50,148 nucleotides of DNA, taken from positions 1 through 50,148 of IMG/VR virus record IMGVR_UViG_3300025030_001570. One strand, 5' to 3'. This document shows, piece by piece, positions 3,662 to 50,148 of this stretch. Below the pieces are notes generated by a model that did no database searches, was not told where the DNA came from, and saw only the letters and a program-made list of their open reading frames with translations. How positions within the stretch are numbered: position 1 is the stretch's first letter; the number at the start of each line of letters is the position of its first letter. The position numbers were made by a program, and so were the translations under genes. Source of the DNA: a virus.

Positions 3662-4256
3662 AATTCAGATAGTTAGTTGGTTAAATGGAAGTGTATTATT
3701 TGAATACGAAAGTAATGATAATACTATTAAACAAACCCTAGAAAAAGCGGTCAGTAAGAATGCTAACCTGGGGGGTGCTAACCTGCGGAATGCTGACCTG
3801 TGGGATGCTGACCTGCGGGGTGCTGACCTGCGGAATGCTGACCTGTGGGATGCTGACCTGCGGGGTGCTAACCTGGGGGGTGCTAACCTGCGGAATGCTG
3901 ACCTGTGGGATGCTGACCTGCGGGGTGCTAACCTGGGGGGTGCTAACCTGCGGAATGCTGACCTGTGGGGTGCTAACCTGCGGGGTGCTAAAAACATAAG
4001 TAGCGACCAAACCGATTACTGGTGGCACATACATCACGAAACATTATATGAGTATCTAACTGAACCTATAAGAGCCAGAATTAACTATATTAAAAAGGAA
4101 AAACCAAAAAAAGAGGTTGAGTTAAGACTAAAACTATTGAAGCCTGTTTTGGGTAAAATTCCTACTACGGAAAAAGGTTGGGAAGCACTGCATCAAAGGG
4201 AATGTAAAGATTGTAGTTGGAATTCAAAACAACAGACAATTTTCCCTAAAAAATAA
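3639..4256 (+). CDS. Pentapeptide-repeat protein
   Basis: 205 aa. After a basic N-terminal segment, residues about 42-118 form about 15 consecutive A(N/D)L-x-x repeats. These should fold into a right-handed quadrilateral beta-helix, the DNA-mimic shape of gyrase-protecting proteins such as Qnr/MfpA. A soluble Lys-rich C-terminal domain with an HxxxC-x2-C end follows. An upstream in-frame ATG exists at 3621; GGGAGG in front of 3639 supports the shorter form. A gyrase or host-enzyme decoy role is plausible but not shown. Confidence 0.75.
   Translation: MIKKKKIKIQIVSWLNGSVLFEYESNDNTIKQTLEKAVSKNANLGGANLRNADLWDADLRGADLRNADLWDADLRGANLGGANLRNADLWDADLRGANLGGANLRNADLWGANLRGAKNISSDQTDYWWHIHHETLYEYLTEPIRARINYIKKEKPKKEVELRLKLLKPVLGKIPTTEKGWEALHQRECKDCSWNSKQQTIFPKK
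3763..3992 (+). repeat. 15-bp tandem repeats encoding pentapeptides
   Basis: About fifteen 15-bp units of the type GCTRACCTGNGGNNT, grouped in larger near-identical blocks of about 60 bp. The blocks suggest recent expansion by slippage or unequal recombination, so the length may vary between isolates. Confidence 0.9.
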
Positions 4257-5564: not shown

Positions 5565-5783
5565 TATAATGTATTAGCACCTTATTCATGGGGGCTGGGA
5601 GTTCATCTCCTTTCATTGAGCAAACAACGCTTATTGGGCAGGTAAGCGACTCATTTTCACTGCATTCTTCCAGCCTCCGTCATTATTTGCTTACTTAAAC
5701 AGCTTATAATTTGCATCAGTGGTAGGCAGGGACAGGCTTATCACTGCTGGAGCTTATATTAGCTCAAGTCTATTAGTACTAAG
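5565..5783 (+). ncRNA. Structured intergenic RNA element with its own -10 box
   Basis: TATAAT (5565-5570) directly follows the previous stop. The RNA then offers: GGAG/CTCC hairpin 5598-5601/5607-5610; 5590-5598 pairing with 5670-5678 (8 of 9); 5642-5647 pairing with 5689-5694, interleaved with the former (pseudoknot topology); a long hairpin 5717-5727/5736-5746 of 11 bp with two G-U pairs and an 8-nt loop; and GAGCT/AGCTC at 5750-5765. A second TATAAT lies at 5705-5710. No open frame of note. It could be a free small RNA or a leader controlling the lysis genes. Confidence 0.5.
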
Positions 5784-7084: not shown

Positions 7085-7279
7085 ATGGTCAACGTCATCT
7101 TGGTTACCGACACGGGTTTCCTGTTCTGCTTCCTTCCCGTCAAGAACATCGAAGATGCCGACAGGCAAGTGAAGCAAAGACCGAAAGGGAAGATACTCGT
7201 CTTTGAGGTAACTGTTGGGGACCGCACTGTCGAAGCACAAGACATACTGATAGCGTACGCAGGGGAGGTGTGTCATTGA
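7085..7279 (+). CDS. Hypothetical protein, 64 aa
   Basis: A beta-rich small protein with a hydrophobic start, behind the SD-like AAGGAAGGGAG. Its base composition is visibly more GC-rich than the flanking early genes, as is the next gene, suggesting the pair was acquired together. Its TGA overlaps the proposed ATT start of the next gene (ATTGA). Confidence 0.6.
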   Translation: MVNVILVTDTGFLFCFLPVKNIEDADRQVKQRPKGKILVFEVTVGDRTVEAQDILIAYAGEVCH

Positions 7280-7553
7280 CTCGGCAGAGTTCATCCAAAG
7301 ACTTGCACACGTTGCGATTCACTACCTTGTCTTACTGGACGAACCTTTGGTGGGGGATTCTCTGGTACCAGTTTCTCTACTGTCTCGTAGTCTCTGGGAC
7401 TGTTACATTGATCTTATCGAGGGATTCCCAGAGACAAAAGGTGAGGCTGATTTTATCATCGAAACCGTTAGAGATTACAAACGAGGAAAAATCAGCGTTG
7501 AACGAGCCTTCCAACGGATCGAGGAGAGCGTGAAATGGACTACTCATAAATAG
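7275..7553 (+). CDS. Hypothetical protein with a proposed ATT start, 92 aa
   Basis: The frame is open with a smooth amphipathic helical sequence from 7275 to 7553. The first conventional start is TTG at 7347, which has no SD. At 7275 an ATT lies 6 nt after GGGGAGG (7262-7268) and overlaps the preceding stop as ATTGA, just as ATGA overlaps elsewhere in this operon. I therefore propose ATT initiation. The protein is soluble and helical, with an acidic middle and a basic C-terminus. No family recognised. Confidence 0.55.
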   Translation: MDSAEFIQRLAHVAIHYLVLLDEPLVGDSLVPVSLLSRSLWDCYIDLIEGFPETKGEADFIIETVRDYKRGKISVERAFQRIEESVKWTTHK

Positions 7554-16096: not shown

Positions 16097-16294
16097 TTAT
16101 TTCTTATCTACACCCGCTCTGAGGAATACACCAGCAAGACCAGCAATAATCACTTCTACTGCACTAACAACTTGCGGATCTACTTGGTCAACTACCACAC
16201 CGAACTGTTTACCCAGTTCAATAAGGACTAGAAGGGCAACAGCAAGATAGGTTCTATTGCCTTTACCTGGTACGGAACTAACTAAATTATTTAT
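16097..16294 (-). CDS. Holin-like membrane protein with a proposed ATA start, 65 aa
   Basis: Two hydrophobic helices (about 16-33 and 43-60) and a Lys-ended tail give a small holin-like protein in the late lysis block. In frame, a TAA lies directly upstream, and the first ATG/GTG/TTG comes only after half of the protein. The codon right after that TAA is ATA, 6 nt downstream of AAAGGGGGTG, an SD identical in style to those at 890 and 1022. I propose ATA initiation coupled to the stop of the preceding 25-codon gene. Confidence 0.6.
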   Translation of the reverse strand: MNNLVSSVPGKGNRTYLAVALLVLIELGKQFGVVVDQVDPQVVSAVEVIIAGLAGVFLRAGVDKK

Positions 16295-16372
16295 TTAAAT
16301 CACCCCCTTTCTAAATAAGTTTAGGGCTTTCCCTGGAGAGTACTTGCGCTTTAAACGCCGATATTGTTTCAT
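16295..16372 (-). CDS. Basic microprotein, 25 aa
   Basis: A 25-residue Arg/Lys-rich peptide. Its ATG overlaps the stop of the M23 peptidase gene (ATGA), and its TAA immediately precedes the ATA start of the holin-like gene. It contains the SD for that gene, so its translation may open the site. Too small to assign. Confidence 0.45.
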   Translation of the reverse strand: MKQYRRLKRKYSPGKALNLFRKGVI

Positions 16373-17244
16373 TGCTTTCCGAAAAGCTTTTGTCTTAGCC
16401 ATCTTGATAACTCATCTACCCAGTCTGGTGCTGGTTCTATTGGCTCGCTGTCAGTATAAATTAGGTCTGTAAGCCTTTGAATCGCCTTTAAACGAGTCTT
16501 TTGGTCAGAGTTAGGTTCCAGCCCCAATGCCGCATCTACTTGATGGCTTTCCTCTAGTAACTGAGCCAACATTCCTGTCTTTTCCAAGAAGTCTTTTTTA
16601 ACAAGCTCGTAAGTGTTTCTAACTTCCTTCAAGTCTGCGTCTATCGTCCCAACTTTTTTTTCCAACTCAGCAATCTGAGCCAGGGCGGTAATGAGTTTAG
16701 CGTTGGTCGCTCTATAATCTTTTAAGTACCGCACGGCACTAGCGTTCCATTGTTGGGCTGATAAAGTAACTGGTTTGCCGTTTTTACCTTTGAATAATCC
16801 TGATGTATCAGTAAACACGTCTAAGCCTCCGCTCTTGGTATTATAATACTTTTGGAAGTTTGGGAAAGTGGTAGGAGTTCCTTTGTATCTAAACTCGCAA
16901 TGGGCATGTGCTCCAGTACTGTTTCCAGAGTTTCCAGTGCTTGCAAATGGGTAGTTAACGACTCCAGTCCCTTGCGAGGCACTGCCACATAGGTGTGCGA
17001 TGAGGATTTCCCAAGACCCACCAACCCCAATTTTGATAAAATTTCCGTAATCTCTTGTGGTGAGAGTGCCCGTGTTTTTCCAATTCTGTGTACAACCATA
17101 CTTTTGGACTCGGCTAATAAGTTGATATGCCAGCGGAGCATACGCCTTCGTACCAATAGGGGTAGCCACATCATAGCCTTTGTGAGAGCTAGAGTAGCCT
17201 CGACTAATCTTATGAGTGCCTTTAAATAAAAGGATGGTAGCCAT
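16369..17244 (-). CDS. M23 (LytM) zinc endopeptidase, 291 aa
   Basis: Residues about 10-125 carry the M23 metal ligands H21-x3-D25 and a distal HxH (HAHCEF), with a further LIAHL histidine. It cleaves peptidoglycan cross-bridges or stems. The C-terminal half is a long coiled coil (about 165-235) and a short basic end, probably for oligomerisation or virion attachment. It is followed by two tiny genes, including a holin-like protein. It may act in host lysis or as a virion-borne entry enzyme. The start overlaps the previous gene's stop by ATGAAATG. Confidence 0.85.
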   Translation of the reverse strand: MATILLFKGTHKISRGYSSSHKGYDVATPIGTKAYAPLAYQLISRVQKYGCTQNWKNTGTLTTRDYGNFIKIGVGGSWEILIAHLCGSASQGTGVVNYPFASTGNSGNSTGAHAHCEFRYKGTPTTFPNFQKYYNTKSGGLDVFTDTSGLFKGKNGKPVTLSAQQWNASAVRYLKDYRATNAKLITALAQIAELEKKVGTIDADLKEVRNTYELVKKDFLEKTGMLAQLLEESHQVDAALGLEPNSDQKTRLKAIQRLTDLIYTDSEPIEPAPDWVDELSRWLRQKLFGKQ

Positions 17245-17245
17245 T

Positions 17246-17464
17246 TCATTTGTTTGGTGTTACTTTACCATTTAACGCTTTAAAGTAAGTTACTAGCTCA
17301 CTAGTAACTTGAGTATTCTTCCTGATACTTTCAACAAGTTCTCTATTAGTTCTATCTGTTTTATCCAAGTGTTGAGTAAGCCAACGAATTATCCACGAAA
17401 GAATAGTCACCACCGCTAAAGCTATTAATATTCCCCCACCCTGCACAAGCTGCTCTGTTGACAT
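17246..17464 (-). CDS. Single-pass membrane protein (holin/spanin-like), 72 aa
   Basis: One membrane helix (about 11-31) and a charged helical tail, like BhlA-type or antiholin proteins. A strong SD AAGGAGG lies 8 nt before ATG. Its N-terminus (STEQLVQGGGIL) repeats the orphan start at 17961 (TEQTIIQAGVLL), and the HNH gene lies between them. The present start therefore seems to be a replacement after the insertion. Confidence 0.65.
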   Translation of the reverse strand: MSTEQLVQGGGILIALAVVTILSWIIRWLTQHLDKTDRTNRELVESIRKNTQVTSELVTYFKALNGKVTPNK

Positions 17465-17975: not shown

Positions 17976-18848
17976 TTAATCTGCATATTCAAAGTAGCCC
18001 ACAAGCCAAACATCACTATCATCAATACCTGCGGTAACTTTATATTCAAAAATCTGATTTGTGTCTACTGGCACAATAAATGAAAATCGATGATAAGCTG
18101 AATCAGTTAAAGTGCTCATTGCAATTGTTCCATCATCCGTAGCAGCACTTCCATTTTTTCTAACATAAAAATATAGATTCGGGGCGCCTGCCGTATCTTT
18201 AAACCAACCACGACAAGCAATTGCATAGGTATTAGCCGAAGTATTGGCAGTAACATCAATATCGGTAAAGTTTGTATTAAGTCCGTTAGTAAGGATTTGC
18301 GCAGCATCGTCTAAAGGAACAAACCTTGTCGCTCTGTAATTATTTTCTCCTACCGTAGTTTGGTCTGAGGCGTTTTTATTGATTACATTCTTAGCTGTCC
18401 CAGCAGCGTTCTTTATTTGATAAGGAGTATTGTTTGGGAGCAACACACCATTGTCTTTTAGAAGTACACCGTCTACAGTTACCCCTGCTCCAGAAGTTTT
18501 CTCCGCTATTGAATTGGTAGTATGAGCACCAGCCGTAGTATGTTCTACTTGGAACTGTGTCCATATATTAGAAATTGTGGTGGCTACACTACTATACCAA
18601 TTAGCACCGCCAGTAATATTCTTCAACATCTGAAGGATTTGACCAACACGATTGAGCATACTGGTGGCGGTAGCTCCTGGAGAGGCTTCTGTGCCAGCCG
18701 CAAAAGTATCCCGTAAGTCCTCACCAATAGCGTTTATTTCTAAATTGGGATTATTATGTCCAGTAGCTGTGTGGGCATCAGTCGACAATGTTTTAGTTGG
18801 ATCAAAGGTAGTCTTTTGTGCGGGATCGCTTGCCGGATAATTTGCCAT
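17976..18848 (-). CDS. Virion protein with C-terminal beta domain, 290 aa
   Basis: N-terminal half has a helical segment and Ala/Thr-rich linkers. The C-terminal about 120 residues look like a jelly-roll or head-fibre domain with repeated beta strands (FTDIDVTANTSAN, then YFYVRKNGSA). TATAAT ends 9 nt before ATG. Probably a tail-fibre or surface protein, given its place between the lysis block and the Ser/Thr-rich proteins. Confidence 0.5.
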   Translation of the reverse strand: MANYPASDPAQKTTFDPTKTLSTDAHTATGHNNPNLEINAIGEDLRDTFAAGTEASPGATATSMLNRVGQILQMLKNITGGANWYSSVATTISNIWTQFQVEHTTAGAHTTNSIAEKTSGAGVTVDGVLLKDNGVLLPNNTPYQIKNAAGTAKNVINKNASDQTTVGENNYRATRFVPLDDAAQILTNGLNTNFTDIDVTANTSANTYAIACRGWFKDTAGAPNLYFYVRKNGSAATDDGTIAMSTLTDSAYHRFSFIVPVDTNQIFEYKVTAGIDDSDVWLVGYFEYAD

Positions 18849-26012: not shown

Positions 26013-27194
26013 CTAGTTTGAGGCTTTGAGGTTGTTATAGAGAGCTAACGCATCAGGATCGTTAATCTCTAAATCACCTATAAATACCTTACCATCTACT
26101 TCTTTCAATTCAAACTCACGGGTAAACGATAAGTGCTTGCCGTAGAGTTCATCGTTTTTTATATCCCAAGCACGCCTTATATGAGGGCTACCCTTTTTAT
26201 CTGGCCGACAACTACCATCACAATCTGGTTCTTTACCAGTACCTATTAGATCATCAAAGGTTCTTTTTTGGTTGGTTACAATATATTCCCGATGGGGTCT
26301 GGCTTCTTCCATAGCCTCATCGTAAAGTTTCTTCCAAAGAGCTTTAGCCTCTGGTTTATTTTGGTAATAAGTCATTAAGGTAGGAATAGTGTACCTATCG
26401 CCACTAATAATGTAAGTAGCGATGAAGTAGTTGTGGATTAAGTTGAGGGAGTTATAGTTGTATCCCCTGCCGAACATCGAATGGTACATATGAGTTTTCA
26501 TATCAACCATACAACCCTCTCCAAGCATCCAAGATGCTATACAAAAAGATAATTCTCCGCCACCATACTCCCTTAAATAAGGGTTATAACCACCAATCTT
26601 AAAATACTCATCTCTTTTGATCGCAAAGTAAGCGTGTCCTAAAGCACCGATATAAAATGGTTGAGTGTTGTCAAAGACTCTCATATTCGTCCAAGTGCCA
26701 TAAATTCCCTTCTCCCCAAACTTTATTGAATACTGCACGCCCTGGCGGATATTTGGACTCCCCCAATAATCCATAGTGGAATGAACATGGCTAACAGAAT
26801 ATTTCTCCAATGTATCTATCAGATTGGTAATTGAGTCTGGTTCTACTTGAATATGGGCATCAGCAAATACTAAATACTTGGCAGTTGCTACATTTCTTAC
26901 AGCCCAATCCCTAGCCGAGACGTTGCCAATCCAGGGGTAATAATATACATAAACATAACCTCTAGCTACCAATCCTCGCAAGGCGGGTTCGCCAAAACGA
27001 TTCTCAATAAAATAACGTGAAGAATAATCAGTACTGCCATTATCAATAATTAGTATCCGCCAAGAATAAGGAGAAGCTTCTAACGCAAAAATTAGACTGT
27101 GAATAGTCGAAGTCAAATCGTGAGATTCATTTCTTGTTCCTATAATAACCTCTAAATCAACTTCTTCGTGAGGGTTAAACTTTTCCTGTGTCAA
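26013..27194 (-). CDS. GT27-like polypeptide GalNAc-transferase (GT-A fold)
   Basis: 393 aa. The N-terminus VIIGTRNE, then TIHSLI and SP, parallels VIVFHNE, TVHSVI and SP of mucin-type polypeptide GalNAc-transferases. D112-A-H114 stands where those enzymes have DSH, GGGELSF (211-217) where they have WGGE-x-x-(E/L)SF, and His235/His238 follow as further ligands. Such enzymes attach GalNAc to Ser/Thr of mucins. No ricin-type lectin domain is present; the C-terminal ~130 residues are a different domain with a CDGSC segment. The start is TTG, supported by AAAGGAGAGG. It is the last gene of the cassette, next to the Ser/Thr proteins. A general GT2 enzyme is the alternative. Confidence 0.68.
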   Translation of the reverse strand: MTQEKFNPHEEVDLEVIIGTRNESHDLTSTIHSLIFALEASPYSWRILIIDNGSTDYSSRYFIENRFGEPALRGLVARGYVYVYYYPWIGNVSARDWAVRNVATAKYLVFADAHIQVEPDSITNLIDTLEKYSVSHVHSTMDYWGSPNIRQGVQYSIKFGEKGIYGTWTNMRVFDNTQPFYIGALGHAYFAIKRDEYFKIGGYNPYLREYGGGELSFCIASWMLGEGCMVDMKTHMYHSMFGRGYNYNSLNLIHNYFIATYIISGDRYTIPTLMTYYQNKPEAKALWKKLYDEAMEEARPHREYIVTNQKRTFDDLIGTGKEPDCDGSCRPDKKGSPHIRRAWDIKNDELYGKHLSFTREFELKEVDGKVFIGDLEINDPDALALYNNLKASN

Positions 27195-27555
27195 ATGGCC
27201 TCTCCTTTGTTTTATCGTAGATTTTAGTCATCGCCTCAATCAGTATCGAATCCTTCTTCATCTTAAATGAATGAGCAAAGTACGGTGGTATTTTAATCGG
27301 ACTCATTCTAAACATATCAAAAGTGGTCTTTTCCTTAGTCTTTACATCAATAATGGTTACCTCCGCCTCTCCTTTAGCCAGATAAAAATACTCGTCAGCG
27401 GCAGTACTGTAGTGGTTGCCAAGAATTGAATCCTCTTTAACATGAAGAACTTTAATGTTATGGATTGATATATTCAGATCACTAAAGAATTCTACTAAGT
27501 CTCTTCTTTTATCTGAACCAACAAAGGTTACATAAGAGAAATCAGTTTGTTCCAT
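27175..27555 (-). CDS. Sugar-modifying cupin (FdtA/WxcM-like)
   Basis: 126 aa, single cupin barrel with the conserved-type phrases GNHYSTAADEYFYLAKGEAEV and IPPYFAHSF. The His residues are at positions typical of nucleotide-sugar ketoisomerases or epimerases. In context it would act on a nucleotide-4-keto sugar made by the GDP-mannose dehydratase two genes upstream. It overlaps both neighbours. Confidence 0.6.
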   Translation of the reverse strand: MEQTDFSYVTFVGSDKRRDLVEFFSDLNISIHNIKVLHVKEDSILGNHYSTAADEYFYLAKGEAEVTIIDVKTKEKTTFDMFRMSPIKIPPYFAHSFKMKKDSILIEAMTKIYDKTKERPFDTGKV

Positions 27556-28201
27556 AATATCTTTGTACCTCTTCTAATACATACGGCATAGCTAACTGGT
27601 TTAGGTGGATAGCATCCTGGAAGTATTCACCTTTGACTGTCCCATCTTCATTCAACAGTTTATTAAAAATCGTTATTACAGGTATGGTATTCTCCTCCGC
27701 CAGCTTACTTAATCTGGCATTAAACATCTTAGTTACCTCCAGCCTTTCTTGCCAAGTTCCAAAGGCCGGAAAATCGAGATGGTCACTGTCTAAAGTTGGT
27801 GTGACGTGCCAGGCTATTGGAGAGTACTTTATGTCCTTTATTTCCAAGAAGACTGAGAAATAGCGGTCAACACATTCATTGACCACATCTTCTACACTTC
27901 TTTCCTGTAACCTAGCTTGTTTAAGCAAGTGCAGTCGACAATCTATCTCGCCAAAAACCAACATTACCCTGCTATTCTTAGGCAACTTCTCAACAGCCGC
28001 AAACAACTTTTCTCTCCCTTGAGTAGTCGAGCCTTCTTTAACTAGATTGTACGCTGTAGTAGGGCCAACAATTAACGCTTTAAATATCGGTATCCTGTTG
28101 ATACACCATCGAGGATACTGTCTTTCTTTCTGCCAATTCCGTAATCTTGACTTGCCACCAAAGAAATGGGCGTGGCTATCACCGATACAGTAAATTTTCA
28201 T
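27542..28201 (-). CDS. SGNH-type hydrolase (possible sugar O-deacetylase)
   Basis: 219 aa. GDSH at residues 7-10 holds the likely catalytic Ser, and DAIHLN near the C-terminus supplies Asp and His, the layout of SGNH/GDSL esterases. In a glycan cluster such enzymes usually add or remove acetyl groups. GGTGGA serves as SD. Confidence 0.55.
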   Translation of the reverse strand: MKIYCIGDSHAHFFGGKSRLRNWQKERQYPRWCINRIPIFKALIVGPTTAYNLVKEGSTTQGREKLFAAVEKLPKNSRVMLVFGEIDCRLHLLKQARLQERSVEDVVNECVDRYFSVFLEIKDIKYSPIAWHVTPTLDSDHLDFPAFGTWQERLEVTKMFNARLSKLAEENTIPVITIFNKLLNEDGTVKGEYFQDAIHLNQLAMPYVLEEVQRYYGTN

Positions 28202-29153
28202 TGTCCACCATTATCTTAATTAACTCTTGAAACTTAACTTTAGGTTCATAACCAAGCAGTTTCTTAGCTTTTGAGTAATCTCCCAGTAAAGTGGTAGTTT
28301 CGGCTGGTCTCATAAAGTTTTTATCCTGTTCTACATAGTCTTTCCAGTTCAAACCAAGATAATTAAAAGTCTCGGTCACAAACTCCTCTATGGTATGATT
28401 CTCGCCTGTAGCGATTATAAAGTCATCTGGAGTAGAGTACTGCATAATCTTCCAAATCCAGTAGACATATTCCTTAGCGTAACCAAAGTCACGTTTCTCA
28501 TCTAAATTACCTAAATACAATTTATTCTGCAAGCCTTTCTTTATCCGTACAGCGGCTTTAACTACCTTCTTGCTGAGAAACTGATCTCCTCTTCTTGGAC
28601 TTTCATGGTTAAATAATATCCCATTATATATCTTCATTCCGTAACCTCTACGAAAACACCTACCAAGATAAAAAGCGTAGGCTTTAGCACAGCCGTAAGG
28701 ACTGCGGGGATTAAAAGGTGTTTCTTCGTTCTGTGGTACTTCTTTGACTTCACCGTACATCTCACTGGAACTGGCCTGATATATCTTTGCATCTGGACAG
28801 GCATTACGAGCTGCCTCAATGAGTCTAGCAAACCCTAAACCTGTAACCTCACCAGTATAAACTGGTACATCATAGCTAACCCTTACTTGGCTTTGAGCCG
28901 CAAGGTTATATATCTCATCGGGTTTTACTTTTTTAAGTATCTGCTCAAGACTACTTTGTTCCAGTAGATCACCATAATGAAGAAAGAGCTTACGATTAAA
29001 AATGGCTTCTTGGTCAATTAGATGTTGGATTCTATCAGTGCCACTACTGCTACTTCTACGGATAATCCCATGAACCTCGTATTCTTTTTCAATTAACAAT
29101 TCAGCTAAATAACTCCCGTCTTGTCCGTTTACGCCAGTAATTAAAGCTTTCAT
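28179..29153 (-). CDS. gmd: GDP-mannose 4,6-dehydratase
   Basis: 324 aa. An N-terminal Rossmann fold TGVNGQDGSYLAE, RRSSSSGTDRI, NLAAQS and the SDR catalytic pair in SPYGCAK (Tyr and Lys of YxxxK) identify GDP-mannose 4,6-dehydratase, which makes GDP-4-keto-6-deoxymannose with NADP. The product feeds fucose, rhamnose, perosamine or similar sugars. The usual AAK is GCAK here, a mild variation. Length matches the family. Confidence 0.92.
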   Translation of the reverse strand: MKALITGVNGQDGSYLAELLIEKEYEVHGIIRRSSSSGTDRIQHLIDQEAIFNRKLFLHYGDLLEQSSLEQILKKVKPDEIYNLAAQSQVRVSYDVPVYTGEVTGLGFARLIEAARNACPDAKIYQASSSEMYGEVKEVPQNEETPFNPRSPYGCAKAYAFYLGRCFRRGYGMKIYNGILFNHESPRRGDQFLSKKVVKAAVRIKKGLQNKLYLGNLDEKRDFGYAKEYVYWIWKIMQYSTPDDFIIATGENHTIEEFVTETFNYLGLNWKDYVEQDKNFMRPAETTTLLGDYSKAKKLLGYEPKVKFQELIKIMVDNENLLYR

Positions 29154-29803
29154 AATAGACTCGCAATCTCCTCTGGTAGAGGTTTATCTAATAGTGCTGG
29201 CTTACCTACACCATAAGTATATCCTTGCAGATCATCTTTTCTAAACGAGTGCGGTTTAACCAACGCTAGATGATAAAATCGAGGTGCTATTTTCCTAACC
29301 TTTGGATTGTGTTTCCAGTATAAAGGCACACCATTGGTGTAGATCATATCTTTAGGCCAGGGATGACGGTAGGTAATACCATCATTCCTATAGAATTTAG
29401 TAAACCATTTATTCCACCAACTGCCATCGTGATTCTCTTTGTCTATCACTTGGTAAGGGTTCACTGCTAGACCAGGGGAGTCATCTAATTCGTGCATAAC
29501 CGAATCTAAATCATAAGGATTCCAGTAATCGTCATCATCCAAAAAGAGAATCCACTCGGTTCTTGTCATATCGGCTAGTTTCTGCCTTTCAGCCGTCAGC
29601 ATACCTTGATCTGGTACATCCTCATAAAATATCTTAATCTTTGGATTATTCAGGGCTTTTATAGCTTCCTCTGTTCCATCGGTAGATTTCTTGGAAATAG
29701 TTACAAACATCTCACTCATCAATAAAGAAGCCGATTTAAGAACAGGAACGATAAAAGGCATTCCGTTTTTGACTATGGTATGACTTGTGATGGTCAGTCT
29801 CAT
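29150..29803 (-). CDS. GT2-like glycosyltransferase, 217 aa
   Basis: Compact GT-A enzyme with an LDDDDYWNP metal and sugar-nucleotide site near residues 90-100 and a preceding RTEW. It lacks a long C-terminal domain. The donor and acceptor cannot be told. SD GAGGAG; 4-nt overlaps on both sides. Confidence 0.75.
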   Translation of the reverse strand: MRLTITSHTIVKNGMPFIVPVLKSASLLMSEMFVTISKKSTDGTEEAIKALNNPKIKIFYEDVPDQGMLTAERQKLADMTRTEWILFLDDDDYWNPYDLDSVMHELDDSPGLAVNPYQVIDKENHDGSWWNKWFTKFYRNDGITYRHPWPKDMIYTNGVPLYWKHNPKVRKIAPRFYHLALVKPHSFRKDDLQGYTYGVGKPALLDKPLPEEIASLL

Positions 29804-30429
29804 ATCGCTCTCCTCGCCATTCCTATTAAATGGTTCCCAATCACTTTAATTGTGCAATTGCCGAAAATCTTTGTTAGCAAGTGTGTCAGCATATTACTGT
29901 CGTACTTCCTAACGTGTTCATCAGTCTCGTCCGGCCCTGATATATTATTCGGCACAGCTACATATAGATGACCACCATCGTTGAGGCGGTTAAACGATAA
30001 TCTTACGACATCTTCATCTCGCCACAAATGCTCAAGAGTATGGTTGATGGCAACGAAATCAAACTTTTGTTCTAACTTATCCATATCGTAAATATCCATA
30101 GCCAACCCATCTATACCGTATTCCTTTTTCATTCTTTCTATAGCAACGGGAGATATATCAATACCAAATACCTCACAAGTATCTTTTACCCCGTATAAAA
30201 GTCTGCCATTCCCACAACCTACATCTAGGACTGATTTAGCCCCAAATTCTTTAATCCTCCACCAAGCCCATTGCATTGAGTACTTCTCTACTTTACGACT
30301 TGGTCTATTCCAAAGACCATCCCAGTATTCGGTTGTGTTTGCTCTATCTGCCACCGCCTTTAACCACGCTGGCTTATCAGCGTGCCTCCAAGTTTTCCAG
30401 ACATCGTTCCAATACTTCTCGTCATTCAT
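29800..30429 (-). CDS. SAM-dependent methyltransferase, 209 aa
   Basis: Class I fold: SVLDVGCGNGRLL (motif I), FGIDISPVAI, and AINHTLEHL. Likely methylates a sugar or other small group on the glycan. It overlaps both neighbours by 4 nt. Confidence 0.8.
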   Translation of the reverse strand: MNDEKYWNDVWKTWRHADKPAWLKAVADRANTTEYWDGLWNRPSRKVEKYSMQWAWWRIKEFGAKSVLDVGCGNGRLLYGVKDTCEVFGIDISPVAIERMKKEYGIDGLAMDIYDMDKLEQKFDFVAINHTLEHLWRDEDVVRLSFNRLNDGGHLYVAVPNNISGPDETDEHVRKYDSNMLTHLLTKIFGNCTIKVIGNHLIGMARRAI

Positions 30430-30935
30430 TTCTTCCTCGCTACTAGCGTAATGTTCGGTAAAGCATATTTCTCTGTTGGGGAGATTCTTACACGGGAGCG
30501 TGTCTTTTTCATATCTACAATCTCAAAACCTACTTGGGGTAAAATTTCTCTAAACTTATCTTCATACCACCCATCTTTATGGTAAGCCCAATCATCTTCC
30601 CCTTGCGAACCATAAGCGTGCCTAACCAACCAATATTTGTCATTGCGGTTCCAGTCCTCTATAATTCCTTCAAAGTCTGGTACTTCAAGTAGTAACAACC
30701 CACCAACCTTTAACCAAGAGTGCCATTGTTTTAGCACTTTAATTGCCTCATCCCTACCGAAATGCTCAAGCAAATGTCGTGCGTGGACTTCCTCAACGTC
30801 AGAATACGTTAGAGTTCTGAAGTCCGCTATAAGATCAGGATGGTAGCGTTCTTCTACATCGATATTTAGAAATTCTGTAATATATCTTTTTCCACTTCCC
30901 ACATTGATTTTCACTTTTTCCTCCATAATTGCCAT
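30426..30935 (-). CDS. SAM-dependent methyltransferase, 169 aa
   Basis: KINVGSGKRYITEFLNIDVEE, then ARHLLEHFGRDEA and WLKVGGLLLLEVPDF, place it among the short COG4627-type methyltransferases common in sugar clusters. It ends inside the next gene. Confidence 0.75.
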   Translation of the reverse strand: MAIMEEKVKINVGSGKRYITEFLNIDVEERYHPDLIADFRTLTYSDVEEVHARHLLEHFGRDEAIKVLKQWHSWLKVGGLLLLEVPDFEGIIEDWNRNDKYWLVRHAYGSQGEDDWAYHKDGWYEDKFREILPQVGFEIVDMKKTRSRVRISPTEKYALPNITLVARKK

Positions 30936-31474
30936 TTGTTGTCGTAAACCTTATTGTGAGTCTTTTCAAGGATAGCTACTGCAAGTGGGTATTTTTCATT
31001 GAAGTTGGGTATCCTATGAAACTGAATCATTATCTCGTAAACACCCCTCAAAAGATTGTTCTCGTTTAGGTCTTCTAGTATTGCAAACTCCGCCCCTTCA
31101 CAATTTATTTCAAGTATGTCTACCTTCCTGTCCTTTAAGAAACCACTTAACTTAACAACATCAACCTCGATAGAATTATCCGATCTGGCCCATTCCCTGT
31201 AAAAAGAACTGCCTTCTTTGTTGACATAAAGAGTTCTTTTTCCTACCTCCTCCCCAAGTGCGTAAGGCAAAACTTTAACCCTCATGTTGGTCTCAAACCT
31301 TTTTCTGCAGACCTCGTAAAAGTCAGGCACTGGTTCAAAAATGATAATATAAGGATTCCATTGGTCAAGTAGATATTGGGAATAATCGCCTTTGTAGCCA
31401 CCGCAATCTACGACTAGAGAACCTGATCTTAAAGGTTTATGTAGTTTAACTATATCCTCAATTCTGGTTTTCAT
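30911..31474 (-). CDS. FkbM-family methyltransferase, 187 aa
   Basis: VVDCGGYKGDYSQYLL, FEPVPDFY and ILEINCEGAEFAILEDL are the FkbM motifs for O-methylation of sugars or lipids. A longer frame reaches 31558, but AGGTGATATG places the start at 31474, one base after the stop of the preceding gene. Confidence 0.85.
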   Translation of the reverse strand: MKTRIEDIVKLHKPLRSGSLVVDCGGYKGDYSQYLLDQWNPYIIIFEPVPDFYEVCRKRFETNMRVKVLPYALGEEVGKRTLYVNKEGSSFYREWARSDNSIEVDVVKLSGFLKDRKVDILEINCEGAEFAILEDLNENNLLRGVYEIMIQFHRIPNFNEKYPLAVAILEKTHNKVYDNKWQLWRKK

Positions 31475-31475
31475 A

Positions 31476-32162
31476 TCACCTAAACCCCCTAAAATACTGG
31501 TGATATATCCTGTATTCTTCCCTAATCTTGCGGTAGGAAAAATAACCGTGCTTATCATAAAATTGTTGCTTGGCTATATCTGAAGTAGTGTGCCACTCTG
31601 ATATACTTTGATTGCTTTTATTTCTGGTTACACCAACCAAATGGGCAATAGTTATCTTTTTACTGGTTGCCGACTTCAATCCATTTAACTTCATTCTCCA
31701 AGCTAAATCTAAGTCATCACAGCTCCACAAAAACCTTTCATCAAATAACCCAATCTCCCTAAACAAGCTAGTTTTGAAGAAGCCACAGGGGCCGTAAAAA
31801 TGCTCCACTACTCCTTTTTCTTTATCTGTCAGTCGTACTGCATTTAAGAACTTTTCAAAATCTGCTGTCTCAACATAACCAGGAGACACCGCATTGTAGG
31901 TTTGCAGTTTCTCAACTACATCTTCCAACCAACCTTCTACAAACCATAGATCATCATTTAGCACTCCGACAGCAAAAGTTCCTCCTTTGTAAGCATCTAT
32001 TAGAATTGGGTTGATTGCGGAAGCTCCAAAGTTCTCTCCTTGTAGAATATGTAGCTTTAGGTTGGTGAATTTCTCGGTTGTTGGCTTAAATCCAGACAAG
32101 AACTCATCCAAGATGTTTTGGTGTTTAGACTGTACAATTACCTCAAGTTTGGTTTGGTACAT
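31476..32162 (-). CDS. GT2-like glycosyltransferase, 228 aa
   Basis: GT-A enzyme with LNDDLW near residues 68-73 and GPCGFFKTSLFREIGLFDERF followed by CDDLDLAWR, the second half of a GT2 site. The frame is open to 32195; AGAGGAG 10 nt before the ATG at 32162 favours the shorter form. Confidence 0.75.
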   Translation of the reverse strand: MYQTKLEVIVQSKHQNILDEFLSGFKPTTEKFTNLKLHILQGENFGASAINPILIDAYKGGTFAVGVLNDDLWFVEGWLEDVVEKLQTYNAVSPGYVETADFEKFLNAVRLTDKEKGVVEHFYGPCGFFKTSLFREIGLFDERFLWSCDDLDLAWRMKLNGLKSATSKKITIAHLVGVTRNKSNQSISEWHTTSDIAKQQFYDKHGYFSYRKIREEYRIYHQYFRGFR

Positions 32163-32823
32163 ATTTTCTATACTCCTCTGGAATCGGAATCCCACAATGC
32201 CCAGGTTCGTGGAATCGGTAATCGTGTTTCCAAATTCCAGTTCTCAACTCCCCCAAATGAAGAAATGGGTGTTTAACTCCCTGATATTTTCGTGAATTTA
32301 AACGGTGTTTATTGTAAGCAATCACCTCATGTCCATAATTACCTTCCCAAGTTAGTTCGGGCATATTTCTAAATAACCTAATCGGGTGAAAATTTCTATG
32401 GTGATATGGATCAAGAATATGATCTCCCTCTAAATGGTAGAAGTAAACAGAATAAACAAAACGATCTGGAGGTGGTTCTAGGTCAAGTATGTCTCGCATA
32501 GTCAAATCAGGGAAGATTTCATCATCATCAATTTTTAGTATCCATTCAGACTTAGTTTCAATTCTCAATTTATTTAGCAGTTCAGTTAAAGCTGTATTTT
32601 TCTCATTATCTATCCAAGTTCTACCTAAATGCTGAACATCAAATCGGTCATATTCTAAAAATGGGTAAGAAGTTTTAATCTCCTTTAGTATTTCCATTGT
32701 TCTATCAGTTGATCCTGTATCTATTACACGAGCTTCATTAATAAAAGGCAGAACAGCCTTTAAAACAAAAGGCAAGAGATATTCTGCCTCGTAAGTTAAT
32801 AAGTTAATTGCTAAGGATTGCAT
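32143..32823 (-). CDS. GT2-like glycosyltransferase, 226 aa
   Basis: VIDTGSTDRTMEILKE, then WILKIDDDEIFPD, are the GT2 nucleotide and metal motifs (DDDE). The C-terminal half is His/Tyr-rich. GGAGAAG serves as SD. It overlaps neighbours at both ends. Confidence 0.78.
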   Translation of the reverse strand: MQSLAINLLTYEAEYLLPFVLKAVLPFINEARVIDTGSTDRTMEILKEIKTSYPFLEYDRFDVQHLGRTWIDNEKNTALTELLNKLRIETKSEWILKIDDDEIFPDLTMRDILDLEPPPDRFVYSVYFYHLEGDHILDPYHHRNFHPIRLFRNMPELTWEGNYGHEVIAYNKHRLNSRKYQGVKHPFLHLGELRTGIWKHDYRFHEPGHCGIPIPEEYRKYVPNQT

Positions 32824-33509
32824 ACTTCTCCATTGGTTAGGGTTTTGGATAAATCTGGGGTTTCTTTGAAGTTGTACCCCTGACCAAAGGCTGTATCAAC
32901 TGCTAATGAGTTTAGCTCCTTAGTAACTACCAAATAACCCTTATTGTAAGCAGCCTCAACCCACTTACTACCCGCTATTCGGTGGTTAATAAATGGGCCT
33001 ATCTCCTCAAAAGACTCTCGCTTCATCATCCATGAGTTAGAACCAGCCTTTAAGTTAAGCAGATAGTTTTCTCCCTTAAACTCTTGTACTCCTCGCCAGT
33101 ATCTTTCATTTCGATGCTGTCGATCTGTTCGTAGTGGCGTAACCAGATACTTCTTATCTGGAAAGGCATCTAAGATAGAGACGCACCATTGTACCCACCC
33201 AGGCTTATATTCAATATCATTATCGGAGATATGGATGTAGTCGCCTTGTGATAGTTTTATTGCTTGATTTCTGGCGTAGCCAAAATAGTAGTTCTTATTG
33301 TTTCTAACATAGTGGTGGATATGACCTGCGGCGGTCTGATCTAACAGCCAACGAGAGTCATCAATGTTATCGCCATTATCAACTACAATAATCTCACACG
33401 GAGTATCCTTTGTAGTTTCAATCAAAGAGTTAATACATCTACGTAGTGTCTCTGATCTAAATTCATTCTGTGCCCAATGAGTAACGATAATACTAATGGT
33501 AGATTTCAT
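32811..33509 (-). CDS. GT2-like glycosyltransferase, 232 aa
   Basis: IIVVDNGDN, then YIHISDNDIEYKPGW, then WMMKRESFEEIGPF, give a standard GT2 layout. It overlaps the AsnB-like gene before it by 17 nt. Donor unknown. Confidence 0.78.
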   Translation of the reverse strand: MKSTISIIVTHWAQNEFRSETLRRCINSLIETTKDTPCEIIVVDNGDNIDDSRWLLDQTAAGHIHHYVRNNKNYYFGYARNQAIKLSQGDYIHISDNDIEYKPGWVQWCVSILDAFPDKKYLVTPLRTDRQHRNERYWRGVQEFKGENYLLNLKAGSNSWMMKRESFEEIGPFINHRIAGSKWVEAAYNKGYLVVTKELNSLAVDTAFGQGYNFKETPDLSKTLTNGEVCNP

Positions 33510-34440
33510 TTAAAATCTTTTTTTGTGCCTCTAAATAAAGCCTTTTATCAAACTCGCCGTATTTCATCCAACCTTTTAGCCTATTTACTGGATAGACAGG
33601 CCCACCAACCTTCTTCTTTCTCCAAGCTATTTCGTGGGGTAAATACCTTTCGGCCACTTTTCTAAGCGTATATTTACCGTATTCAACATTGTGTATCTTG
33701 GCGGTAAGCGGTAAATCCAGCATATAGTTATCTATATCCATATTGTCTTGATACGGCCTCAAATTAGTAATACCAAAGTACTTAGCTATCCCATTACTCA
33801 TATCATCCATATCTGGTCTCATCAGTAATATATCTACCTTACATATTGCTCTCATTATATCTTCACCGCTATCAGCAAAAACCTTAATTATTTCCTCTTC
33901 TTTCTTGCCAGTCAATTTAGCATAGCTTTCTACTATACCAGGCAACACTTTATCTATAGCTGGCTGGTAATCATCAAAAGCCTCATAAGCAAATATGCTA
34001 TATAGGTAAGCCATTATAAGCTGACGGCCATAACCAAACATTGTCTCATCAGGGCCATCTCCCAATATTAACTTGGTAACTCCCATCCTTTTTAGATACT
34101 CATACATCACATAGAGAGGAAATATATTAAAATGGGGAATTGGTCTACCAATCGCTTTTACGGCAATCGAAAAATACTCATCAAACTTATCATGGTCTAA
34201 TTCAATGATATAATGTTTTAGATTCAGATGCTCTGCCACTAATGAAGAGTACTGAATCTCATTGTGCTTATCGCCCCCTGGCAATCTCACACTAACCACA
34301 AACGCTGGCTTGGTCAGAGCCGCTAAGAGGCTACTATCAACCCCACCAGATAAAGCAAGAGGTAGACCCTCATACTTTTTTGCTTCTTCTAATAACAAGC
34401 TTTCTAACTCATCTGCTAAAATATCAATTTCTTCCTTCAT
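33493..34440 (-). CDS. AsnB-like ATP-pyrophosphatase amidotransferase domain
   Basis: 315 aa. SGGVDS at 31-36 is the PP-loop, and GDGPDETMFGY matches GDGADELFGGY of asparagine synthase. The N-terminal glutaminase domain is absent, so ammonia must come free or from another subunit. Homologues in polysaccharide clusters amidate sugar carboxyl groups, which would fit the dehydrogenase encoded just upstream. SD AAGGAGG; overlaps both neighbours. Confidence 0.75.
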   Translation of the reverse strand: MKEEIDILADELESLLLEEAKKYEGLPLALSGGVDSSLLAALTKPAFVVSVRLPGGDKHNEIQYSSLVAEHLNLKHYIIELDHDKFDEYFSIAVKAIGRPIPHFNIFPLYVMYEYLKRMGVTKLILGDGPDETMFGYGRQLIMAYLYSIFAYEAFDDYQPAIDKVLPGIVESYAKLTGKKEEEIIKVFADSGEDIMRAICKVDILLMRPDMDDMSNGIAKYFGITNLRPYQDNMDIDNYMLDLPLTAKIHNVEYGKYTLRKVAERYLPHEIAWRKKKVGGPVYPVNRLKGWMKYGEFDKRLYLEAQKKILNEIYH

Positions 34441-35194
34441 TCAACCTCCTTATAGTCTCCAGATATTCCGTCTGGCCGTTATACTTTTTTACACCATCAA
34501 TTAAATTATTCAAATCCTTAGGCAAACACGAACCACTAATCTTCCGATTACCTTCGTGGATAAAAGAATGATCCGACTCAATTCTTGGGTCTTCAGTTAG
34601 CATTGTTCTCAGGTCATCGTAGTCAATATGATAGATGTTGCAAATATCATATACTTCATTAAGAAAGGTAAGTTTAGAATAAAAATAAGCGTTCTCTACC
34701 AACTTTAACAGCTCTGCTGTTCTTGCCTGGGTTTGAAATACTTTAACATTGTAAAGAAGAGTCTCCCAAAGGTCAGCTACTTCACTAGTATCGATTGGAG
34801 TCCCACCAACTACCGCCCAATGAATCCTACTTAGATCATTAAATGGGTGATTGGGGAAATCACTAGGGCCGTATTCAGGCATAAATACAATCCGTTTATT
34901 AAACTTCTCCTTAGCCCAATCGGTAAACCCTACCCAAACAGTCGATCGGACAATATTTATCTTTGCCTTTGATTTACTTATTATTTCCTCAACGATTGAG
35001 GTATCACAACTACCATCATCGTTGCTTGGGGTTGGAACACAAAGGAAGAGATAATCAGCCTCTAAGGCTTCTGTAGACTTCATGCCCTTTGGTGGGTCAT
35101 AAACAAACGAGGAACGTATAATATATTTTAAAGCCTTACCAACTTTTCCAAAACCAGCAATTCCTATGTTGTGTGTTTTTTTAGATACTCCCAT
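34424..35194 (-). CDS. Short UDP-glucose/GDP-mannose dehydrogenase-family enzyme
   Basis: 256 aa against the usual 400-440. GIAGFGKVGKA binds NAD, VPTP and VRSTV and MPE follow, and GSCLPKDL is the catalytic-cysteine motif (family GGxCxPKD). The C-terminal nucleotide-binding domain is missing or very short. It would oxidise a nucleotide sugar to its uronate, the natural substrate for the AsnB-like amidotransferase downstream. Confidence 0.75.
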   Translation of the reverse strand: MGVSKKTHNIGIAGFGKVGKALKYIIRSSFVYDPPKGMKSTEALEADYLFLCVPTPSNDDGSCDTSIVEEIISKSKAKINIVRSTVWVGFTDWAKEKFNKRIVFMPEYGPSDFPNHPFNDLSRIHWAVVGGTPIDTSEVADLWETLLYNVKVFQTQARTAELLKLVENAYFYSKLTFLNEVYDICNIYHIDYDDLRTMLTEDPRIESDHSFIHEGNRKISGSCLPKDLNNLIDGVKKYNGQTEYLETIRRLNEGRN

Positions 35195-36045
35195 ACTTGT
35201 TTAATCCCGTCTTCAAATTTAACCTCTGCCTCCCAACCAAGAAGACTCTTAGCTTTTTTAGACTTTATAGCCTCCTTCATTGTCTGACCTGATCGTTGTG
35301 CTATATGAGTTATCGGTGAATCTGACTGAGTTGCTTCCTTAATCATCCTTGCCATATCATTAGCCGAGATACTCTCTTCAGTAGATAAATTTATATCAAG
35401 TTTAGTTAATTCAGGCTTGCTGACTAACCTAGATACAGCTTCAACTAAATCTGATATATGGGTTAATGTTCTTGTTTGGTTTCCGCTACCATGAACAGTT
35501 ATTGGCTTACCGCTCATCGCTTGGCGGAAAAAGACCTTAACCCCCAAAACCTCTCGCATACCTGGTTCTCCATAGGTAGTGGGAAATCTCATATTCACAT
35601 ATTTGAGGTCATGGGTAAAGTGGAACATCTTAATAATCAACTCTCCGATGTACTTTGAATAGGCATAAATCTCGTTAGGATTTGGCGGAGATTCTTCGGT
35701 TGTCTCTGAAAACTTCTCAAAATCCTGATCTCCATAGACACAGCAAGTTGAGGCATAAAGCAACCTTTTTTTATGTTTAGCACAAAACTCGGCCACATTC
35801 CAAGTACCCTCGATATTAGTCGTAAAAGTCTCTTTAGGATGGTCTTTGGCGTAATTCAGATCAGCAATAGCCGCCAAATGAATTACTTGATCCGCTATCT
35901 TTATATTCTGATCTAAGGCTTCTCTATCCGATAAATCATTACCGACTAAACGATCAAAAACTATAGTCTCATACCCTTCTTTAAGAAGTTTCGCTAAAAT
36001 GTTCCTCCCAATAAACCCCATACCACCTGTCAAAAGTATCTTCAC
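35164..36045 (-). CDS. NAD-dependent sugar epimerase/dehydratase
   Basis: 293 aa extended SDR. TGGMGFIGRN binds NAD, and YASTCCVYGD and YAYSK hold the catalytic Ser/Thr, Tyr and Lys. RFPTTYGEPG and HGSGNQTRTLTHISD are typical of UDP-sugar 4-epimerases. The start is GTG, overlapping the previous stop (GTGATGTGA). The exact substrate is unknown. Confidence 0.82.
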   Translation of the reverse strand: MKILLTGGMGFIGRNILAKLLKEGYETIVFDRLVGNDLSDREALDQNIKIADQVIHLAAIADLNYAKDHPKETFTTNIEGTWNVAEFCAKHKKRLLYASTCCVYGDQDFEKFSETTEESPPNPNEIYAYSKYIGELIIKMFHFTHDLKYVNMRFPTTYGEPGMREVLGVKVFFRQAMSGKPITVHGSGNQTRTLTHISDLVEAVSRLVSKPELTKLDINLSTEESISANDMARMIKEATQSDSPITHIAQRSGQTMKEAIKSKKAKSLLGWEAEVKFEDGIKQVWEYLKKHTT

Positions 36046-36707
36046 ATCACACCACCTTCCAATCTAGCCAATAAAGGCGTATCGGTTGTATTTACATCTA
36101 CTGTTTCAGAAGCCTCAAAGCTCTTTAGTAAAGGCACACTAAATAGAGTTACTGCTTGAAAATGTTTAGTTAACACTTCATAGAATTCTCCTGCTGGTGC
36201 TTCGTAGCAATGCTGTTCATTTCTTGGATGGTCGTCCCGAATGTCTGGTGAGTTACGATTCGGTGTAGAGATATAACCAATAGTACCCTCCTTGAAGAAT
36301 CTCTTGATATTGTTCAGAGCATCATCCCACCTCTCTCTTGGTAAATGTTCTATTACCTCTAACATCACCACAATATCGAAAGTGGCTATTGGGCGGTTAG
36401 GCGGGTTGAGGACATCAAAAACATCGAATTTAAGTCGAGGGGATTCAAACAAGGCTTTGCCGAAATCAATCAATTCCTGCTCCACATCAACGGCCCATAC
36501 TCCCAAAGATCGATGAGAAAGAATATTACTGCCCACCCCGAAACTACTGCCAATATCGACAAAGGCCTTGCCCTGATGTTTACTGACCAATGCTTCGTAA
36601 ATCTTCCTCTGCTCATTGGGAATAACGTATTTATGGGTTTCCCACCTTCTCATTGACCAGGTTATACCAGGATATGTTTTAGGTTCGTTCTGTTGGTATT
36701 CGCCCAT
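36042..36707 (-). CDS. SAM-dependent methyltransferase, 221 aa
   Basis: AFVDIGSSFGVGSNIL (motif I), WAVDVEQELIDFG and VVMLEVIEHL define a class I methyltransferase, type 11/12. SD AGAAGGAG. It overlaps the GT4 gene by 29 nt. Confidence 0.8.
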   Translation of the reverse strand: MGEYQQNEPKTYPGITWSMRRWETHKYVIPNEQRKIYEALVSKHQGKAFVDIGSSFGVGSNILSHRSLGVWAVDVEQELIDFGKALFESPRLKFDVFDVLNPPNRPIATFDIVVMLEVIEHLPRERWDDALNNIKRFFKEGTIGYISTPNRNSPDIRDDHPRNEQHCYEAPAGEFYEVLTKHFQAVTLFSVPLLKSFEASETVDVNTTDTPLLARLEGGVM

Positions 36708-37986
36708 TTATAACTCCTTCTATAGCTGGAATAAACTGATTCTTAGCTATCCAATCGTAATTAAACTTCTTCCTAACGGTAGTAAAAGCTCTCATTACTC
36801 TATTACTATTCAAATCCGATAATATGATCTTGGCAATATCCTTAAAATAACCTTCTTCTCCATCATCGCCATATTGAGTTTCATTCACTAAGCGACTTCT
36901 AAACCTAAAGTTAAAAGAACCTTCAGGGCCTAAGAAGTCTATCATTGGCTTAAAGTCTTCATTCAAGATCAGCAAATTCTTGGTAGCTGCGGCTTCTAAT
37001 AAAATTAGCGGTGCGTTTTCGGAGAAACTAGGAAAGATAAACAGATTAGCAATCTGGAATAGTTCCACAACTACTTGATGCGATACTCCCTGTTCATACT
37101 TTGGTAGGTCGTAAAATGAGGTAAAGATTACTTCTGTTCGATCAAGGTTTTTCTGGGCGGCCAGCTGTAAGAAATTCTCAATGGTTTCCTTTTCCCTTTG
37201 GGCATTGGCATGAGCATTAGGAATTATCAATTTAACCTTTTGCCCTAGCTCTTTGAGATAACCCATCACGGAGATTACTTTTCTCACGGCCTTACCATCA
37301 TCTCCCATTCTGGTTGAACTGACAGGGTAAACACAGATAATATCCGCCTCAAATAAGCCATAAGCGTCAATTAGTTCTCTAGTTAATGGGGATAGATTAT
37401 ACATTTCCCTTAAATCCATAGGATTAAAAACTACTTTTACGTCTTTAGGCCATATACCATACATTTCTCCTGCCGCCACCTGTTCTGAGTAATTCATATA
37501 AATTAGTTTAGAGTTTTGGGGATGGGGTAGACCGAATAATTCATTCCACGGATCGGATAAATTAGCCCTTTGACTCGGAGCAGAGTGTATCTGATGAAGC
37601 ATAGGCAAGGTTTCCAGCCGTGCCTGTTTGAGTGCCACATTGTAGATTAAATAAGAGTTAATGAAACATATATCGTGGGTAATAAGACAATCTAGATCTG
37701 CAAATTCTTTCTCAAATACTTCTTTGGTTTTATCAACATTGGCTTGAAAATCATCTGGTACTGGCGAGCCCGTCTGTCCATAAGGTTCCAAAACCCATTG
37801 AGGTACAACTGCCCGCAATTCTACCCCCTCTGGAACTTTGTCCTGATCCATAAAGTTAGTCAGACCAAAAAGGATGGGCTGATAGCCATTCCTTTTAAGC
37901 ATCTGCAACTGTTGGAGAACCACAGTTACCAATGAATAAGCTGGATCTAAATTAGAAAATGTACTTAATATACCTATTTTTTTCAT
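36679..37986 (-). CDS. GT4-like glycosyltransferase, 435 aa
   Basis: GT-B fold enzyme and first glycan gene of the cassette. The C-terminal Rossmann domain holds IFPSFSENAPLILLEAAATKNLLI, the GT4 nucleotide-sugar site with an E-x7-E-like pair. Retaining transfer is expected. The start overlaps the previous gene by ATGA. Confidence 0.85.
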   Translation of the reverse strand: MKKIGILSTFSNLDPAYSLVTVVLQQLQMLKRNGYQPILFGLTNFMDQDKVPEGVELRAVVPQWVLEPYGQTGSPVPDDFQANVDKTKEVFEKEFADLDCLITHDICFINSYLIYNVALKQARLETLPMLHQIHSAPSQRANLSDPWNELFGLPHPQNSKLIYMNYSEQVAAGEMYGIWPKDVKVVFNPMDLREMYNLSPLTRELIDAYGLFEADIICVYPVSSTRMGDDGKAVRKVISVMGYLKELGQKVKLIIPNAHANAQREKETIENFLQLAAQKNLDRTEVIFTSFYDLPKYEQGVSHQVVVELFQIANLFIFPSFSENAPLILLEAAATKNLLILNEDFKPMIDFLGPEGSFNFRFRSRLVNETQYGDDGEEGYFKDIAKIILSDLNSNRVMRAFTTVRKKFNYDWIAKNQFIPAIEGVINGRIPTERT

Positions 37987-38273
37987 TCTAATTCTTCTAG
38001 TTTTCCTTCTGATTCACCTTCTCCATAAAAGAAGTTTGGATTAGATACTTCTTTACCAATTCTAACATCGTATTCTCTTTTAACCTTTGCGTTGCTAATA
38101 GCCTTCTTAACTCTAGCCTCCCCAATCCTTTTGGCGGTTTCAATCATCATATCTTGAGCAGATTTGATTTTAGGTTCCGCCTTCTGTACTTTAATATCTG
38201 ATTTTTCTTCTTTTTCAGAAGGTATAAACTCGGCTACCAGATCTTCAAATGTCTTTTCAGCCAGTGAGATCAT
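37983..38273 (-). CDS. Hypothetical charged protein, 96 aa
   Basis: Lys/Glu-rich, mainly helical. It sits between structural genes and the glycan cassette and overlaps both. No motif recognised. Confidence 0.55.
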   Translation of the reverse strand: MISLAEKTFEDLVAEFIPSEKEEKSDIKVQKAEPKIKSAQDMMIETAKRIGEARVKKAISNAKVKREYDVRIGKEVSNPNFFYGEGESEGKLEELE

Positions 38274-47538: not shown

Positions 47539-47661
47539 ATTCCCTTTAAATCAACCCGTCAAAGACGTTTCATGTTTGCAAAACACCCCGCCATTGCCAA
47601 GCGATGGGCTAAAAAGTATGGATCAAAGATCGTGCCTAAGAAAAAGAAGAAAAGGGTCTGA
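47539..47661 (+). CDS. MPFKS-type basic microprotein with a proposed ATT start, 40 aa
   Basis: The frame reads (start)-PFKSTRQRRFMFAKHP, then RWAKKYG and a Lys-rich end. Phage proteins of this kind normally begin MPFKS. Here the codon at the Met position is ATT, 5 nt after GGAGG (47529-47533), and no ATG, GTG or TTG lies upstream in frame near the SD. The first internal ATG would remove a third of the protein. The role is unknown; it is often found near portal and terL genes. Confidence 0.6.
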   Translation: MPFKSTRQRRFMFAKHPAIAKRWAKKYGSKIVPKKKKKRV

Positions 47662-49974: not shown

Positions 49975-50091
49975 ATGAACAAACTAAACGTCTTAACAAT
50001 ATTAGTCTTGATTATAATTATCTATCTATTTACTCAAATATCGGGCATAGAACACCTATGCACCGATGTGATTGGGGGTGAATGTGTCTAA
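49975..50091 (+). CDS. Small membrane protein, 38 aa (whole copy)
   Basis: One hydrophobic helix (about 5-22) followed by a short tail with two cysteines (29 and 37), which may form a disulphide outside the cell. AAAGGAAG serves as SD. The TAA overlaps the start of the next early gene, whose full copy is at 85-360. It begins the run of membrane microproteins of the early operon. Confidence 0.65.
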   Translation: MNKLNVLTILVLIIIIYLFTQISGIEHLCTDVIGGECV

Positions 50092-50148
50092 TTTTCAAGA
50101 AGAGGCGAAAGTGGAAGTTACTTTATTGAATCAGTATCTGAAACCCTT
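50000..50148. repeat. Terminal overlap of a circular contig, copy 2
   Basis: Second copy of the 149-bp overlap. The small membrane-protein gene that is cut at position 1 is whole at 49975-50091, and the next gene continues from position 85, so the coding order closes without a break. Confidence 0.93.

Follow-up and report, generated by a model that had tools for sequence, protein, structure and literature searches.

The minus-strand ORF at 16294-16097 of the window (the whole 50,148-nucleotide stretch of phage DNA analysed) is probably a genuine gene for a small two-helix lysis-cassette protein in the holin position, translated from an AUA codon behind a strong Shine-Dalgarno (SD) sequence. 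AUA as the true start is well supported: by the strength of the SD, by the codon score of the frame, by synteny with a holin of the relative G001 that starts with ATG, and by a verified ATT start elsewhere in the window, at 47539.

The probable ATA start and its coding signal

Direct reading of the minus strand confirmed the arrangement described in the initial annotation, in which AAAGGGGGTG is followed after 6 nt by an ATA lying directly behind an in-frame TAA. The junction is 5'-AGAAAGGGGGTGATTTAAATAAATAATTTAG, and its triplets read AGA AAG GGG GTG ATT TAA ATA AAT AAT TTA GTT AGT TCC. The features of the site are as follows.

16292..16294, minus strand: ATA start codon of the holin-like ORF, with no NTG for 32 codons and the strongest SD of the window upstream
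16301..16310, minus strand: Shine-Dalgarno AAAGGGGGTG, duplex energy -17.3 kcal/mol, within the last codons of the upstream ORF
16097..16294, minus strand: 65-codon ORF, a predicted two-helix membrane protein, holin-like, from codon score, hydropathy and AlphaFold

The TAA (16295-16297) abuts the 5' side of the ATA (16294-16292) and makes up the last three bases of the spacer (ATTTAA, 16300-16295), so that stop and start lie as close as in a translationally coupled pair. The frame opened by the ATA ends at a TAA at 16099-16097, and its first ATG, GTG or TTG is the GTG at 16198. Stops close all three frames just upstream of the ATA or at it, as read directly from the sequence, making a start further upstream impossible without stop readthrough. 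An AUH codon stands at the proper distance from an SD with no usable NTG start, as expected of an AUH-started gene.

SD–anti-SD duplex energies were computed in a 14-nt spacer-corrected window. Among the start sites examined, the ATA site had the strongest SD, followed by the ATG at 1377 (-15.3). Longer and stronger than usual, it qualifies as an extended SD, and the pairing of AAAGGGGGTG reaches on into GAT.

The expectation by chance was gauged on 60 first-order Markov resamplings of the window, in which a site was scored when an AUH codon began a frame of 60 codons or more and had no NTG nearby. One such site with an SD of -17 or below was observed, against a resampled mean of 0.017, and two (16294 and 7275) with an SD of -14 or below, against 0.05, figures that are indicative only because the thresholds were chosen after the site was seen. 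The codon score of the ATA ORF is 0.19 bits per codon, where the known genes of the phage score 0.10–0.31; none of 105 non-coding frames of 45–90 codons reached 0.19. Coding signal at the locus is confined to the frame of the ATA ORF.

A probable holin position in the lysis cassette

The ATA ORF comes last in a tightly packed minus-strand cassette, preceded in this order by a one-helix protein (17464-17246), a peptidase (17244-16369) and a basic ORF (16402-16295).

17246..17464, minus strand: 72-aa one-helix membrane protein, possibly a spanin or second lysis factor, from hydropathy and a weak match to phrog_214, Rz-like spanin (E 0.006)
16369..17244, minus strand: M23 peptidase, probable endolysin (Pfam PF01551, E 6.5e-07, above the cut-off)
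16295..16402, minus strand: basic 35-aa ORF (MAKTKAFRKAMKQYRRLKRKYSPGKALNLFRKGVI), conserved, 69% identical to its G001 counterpart, with its stop abutting the ATA

The last codons of the basic ORF, which encode RKGVI, contain the SD of the ATA ORF. A two-helix membrane protein had been proposed from the initial reading, and this was borne out by prediction: hydropathy of the 65-aa protein peaks in 19-residue windows starting at residues 15-20 and 38-46, and a single-sequence AlphaFold model places helices at 11-30 and 40-62 (mean pLDDT 80.8). Holins are small proteins with one to three transmembrane helices encoded beside an endolysin; the ATA ORF has the predicted helices and lies beside the M23 peptidase. 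No holin-family profile in PHROG or Pfam matched the 65-aa protein, and searching with it directly in IMG/VR and phage records yielded no match.

G001, a 48-kb IMG/VR contig, is the only close relative found, and it keeps the lysis neighbourhood. Its junction runs from the basic ORF through AAAGGAGGTG and TAA ATG into a 71-aa protein that matches the phrog_1299 holin family (E 3.2e-06), and the SD at this start, at -15.5, is nearly equal to the -17.3 of the window. The tail gene, like the basic ORF, is 69% identical between the two genomes; where the window has its M23 peptidase, G001 has a LysM-like protein, judged by sequence rather than by library comparison. The 71-aa holin and the 65-aa ORF could not be aligned, and for this reason the ORF at 16294-16097 would be a candidate holin by synteny, not by homology. 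The description "holin-like" draws support from the position, the two predicted helices and the PHROG holin match in G001, and against it stands the lack of any family match for the window protein itself.

Looking for an ATG at this place in related phages had been suggested, and G001, the one relative of the junction found, carries one at the syntenic start. An AUH lysis start is not shared by this relative, so the AUA is not conserved. Used as a query, the basic ORF recovered G001 only, and the endolysin recovered no relatives. Distant relatives, G002-G015, were found via the capsid; of these, G005, G009 and G013 were examined and do not have the lysis genes at the equivalent place. A scan of start codons in the distant relatives returned no convincing AUH start, only ambiguous candidates. 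An ATA in G005 (33821) was rejected, there being an ATG five codons further on, and the candidates in G013 were set aside as weak.

Near-cognate starts and a possible second initiation mode

Three AUH starts behind strong SDs had been counted in the initial annotation, its two ATT cases most likely being those at 47539 and 7275.

47539..47661, plus strand: ATT-started 40-aa gene (IPFKSTRQRRFMFAKHPAIAKRW...), SD -10.2, same bases in contig L005, ATG in homologs
7275..7553, plus strand: ATT-started 92-aa ORF, SD -14.5, ATTGA overlap with the upstream stop

Of these three, the ATA at 16294 is probably a real start, and the ATT at 47539 was verified. The ATT is identical in L005, a contig independently assembled from another sample, and the codon aligned exactly with it is ATG in each of three homologs, from phage 023Pt_psg01, Streptomyces phage Vorvolakos and phage C75C1; in the first two, this ATG is the annotated start. 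The exact reproduction in L005 means that AUH starts in the window are not all errors. The ATT at 7275, for whose ORF no homolog was found, is a weaker case.

Sibling contigs are 99.3–99.9% identical to the window, with no indels; none covering 16294 was found with an exact 26-mer from the gene. The window ends (1-149 and 49999-50148) match each other over ∼149 bases apart from a single mismatch, and L005 spans the junction, which indicates a probably complete genome, either circular or terminally repeated. At 3760-4011, L005 aligns in several registers to a degenerate repeat encoding pentapeptide-like (ANLRNADLWDADLRG) repeats. Genes of sugar-nucleotide, glycosyltransferase and methyltransferase-like type form a large block (26013-38000) that takes up a big share of this 50-kb phage, and some of them are >80% identical to those of G001. 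As a clue to the host, a nucleotide-sugar gene was uninformative, with matches from many phyla; no tRNA was found in the window.

G001 has near-cognate starts of its own. We compared 43 orthologous pairs by eye, and in two of them one partner clearly had no NTG at the aligned start: the ATA at 46514 of G001 (L010:7514; SD -12.8) aligns with the window ATG at 18848, and the ACG at 5699 of G001 (L008:5699; SD -12.0, behind AGAGGAGGAT) aligns with the window ATG at 10628. An ATT at 40658 of G001 has an SD of -12.2. These non-NTG starts could include errors, because the G001 contig has 15 N. An ATT two codons before the ACG is an alternative start for that gene. The 18848/46514 orthologs switch mode: the window has a leaderless-like ATG, and G001 an SD with an ATA that shares bases with the upstream TAG.

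The leaderless-like arrangement is common in the window: of 53 genes checked, 11 (0.8 expected) have TATA[AC]T 12–16 nt before the ATG together with a weak SD or none.

10628, 11558, 14531, 16015, 17961, 18848, 19074, 39377, 44761, 47398, 48756: TATA[AC]T starts, consensus roughly GTTATACTNAANAT-ATG

It is enriched also in G001, G005, G009 and G013, and suggests that these genes have leaderless or near-leaderless messages. All 11 start with ATG; every AUH start identified in the window has an SD.

One broader interpretation, which we regard as unlikely, is that near-cognate initiation behind strong SDs, at AUA, at AUU and even at ACG, is habitual in the lineage of the window and G001, with ∼3 such starts per ∼70 genes in each genome, either because start-codon checking in the host is relaxed or with the aid of a phage factor, and that a leaderless-like, AUG-only mode operates alongside. 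The other near-cognate starts in the window and G001 do make the ATA start more interesting. A verified cluster of them in one phage would be a natural set in which SD strength and coupling can be weighed against the start codon, and could also show whether start-codon checking in the host is loose. Because gene callers as a rule expect ATG, GTG or TTG, genes of the same type as the ATA ORF are missed or truncated.

Interpretation and comparison with known AUH starts

We judge it rather unlikely that the true codon is ATG, with one base of the contig being a consensus error or a minor variant. The syntenic start in G001 is indeed ATG, a single transition would turn ATG into ATA, and the 26-mer search left 16294 covered by this contig only; set against this are the close agreement of the independent sibling contigs, whose differences cluster as in strain variation, and the exact recurrence of the ATT at 47539 in L005. 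Quite improbable is gene decay, in which a natural change from ATG to ATA silenced the holin-like ORF and lysis is left to a different membrane protein of the cassette. The protein at 17246-17464 could fill that role and the start codon is not conserved, but the SD, the strongest of the genome, is intact, the frame is open and codon-biased, and AUA still yields measurable expression in other bacteria.

The two remaining readings have very little probability in our estimate. Translation from the internal GTG at 16198, the first NTG in the frame, would give a short one-helix protein; the SD there is weak (-3.8), the first helix would be lost, and the strong upstream SD would be left unused. If the UAA were read through, the basic ORF and the membrane protein would form one longer fusion, which might act like an antiholin. 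Both the window and G001 keep the pair in one frame with only a TAA in between, an observation without weight by itself because a directly abutting stop and start are always in frame. TAA is usually a tight stop, and the membrane protein of G001 has its own ATG.

If initiation is at the AUA, as we prefer, the unusually long SD–anti-SD match would set the ribosome with AUA in the P site, the upstream UAA ending immediately before it. The initiator tRNA (CAU) would take AUA despite the third-base mismatch, which may be tolerated because the mRNA is kept in place by SD pairing and by the ribosome that has just terminated at the neighbouring UAA; reinitiation after that UAA perhaps aids the process. 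AUA would yield only a fraction of the product that AUG gives, keeping holin synthesis low. Such throttling of the putative holin by its start codon is plausible, yet G001 has ATG with a nearly equal SD, so it is not a conserved need. Near-cognate starts (ATT, ATA and ACG) behind strong SDs, found in this phage and in its nearest relative, point to a tolerated variant of ordinary SD-driven initiation.

In S. aureus, infC, ccpN and citZ start with AUA and cvfC1 with AUU, and extended SDs are reported for infC, ccpN and cvfC1 (PMC13009471). The phage ORF has the AUH start in common with all four genes, AUA itself with infC, ccpN and citZ, and the extended SD with infC, ccpN and cvfC1. Luciferase reporters of ccpN, citZ and cvfC1 gave ∼10–30% of AUG output; the S. 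aureus AUA/AUU sites gave roughly 10% of AUG in poor medium, and ccpN up to 30% in rich (PMC13009471). These S. aureus genes are cellular, whereas the present ORF belongs to a phage lysis cassette, and the start codon is conserved in ccpN and cvfC1, whereas G001 has ATG at the phage site. Changing the ATG of E. coli rpoS to ATA lowered RpoS by up to 5-fold (PMC12864459), and a passage of the same paper quotes Hecht et al. 2017 for ATA starts at up to 1% of ATG. Reinitiation at starts beside a stop is established in E. coli and is raised by an SD (PMC2268962).

The AUU starts of E. coli infC and pcnB are, like that of the phage ORF, cases of rare AUH initiation; infC is autoregulated by IF3, whereas the phage ORF has no link to initiation factors. 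Within phages, rare AUH initiation occurs at the internal AUU start of T4 gene 26. The small two-helix holins of phrog_1299 resemble the window ORF in size, in two predicted helices and in their place by the endolysin, although it is the syntenic G001 protein that matches the family and the window protein does not. The ATA-started ORF probably adds a phage example, of modest novelty, to the AUA and AUU starts with extended SDs known from S. aureus and E. coli.
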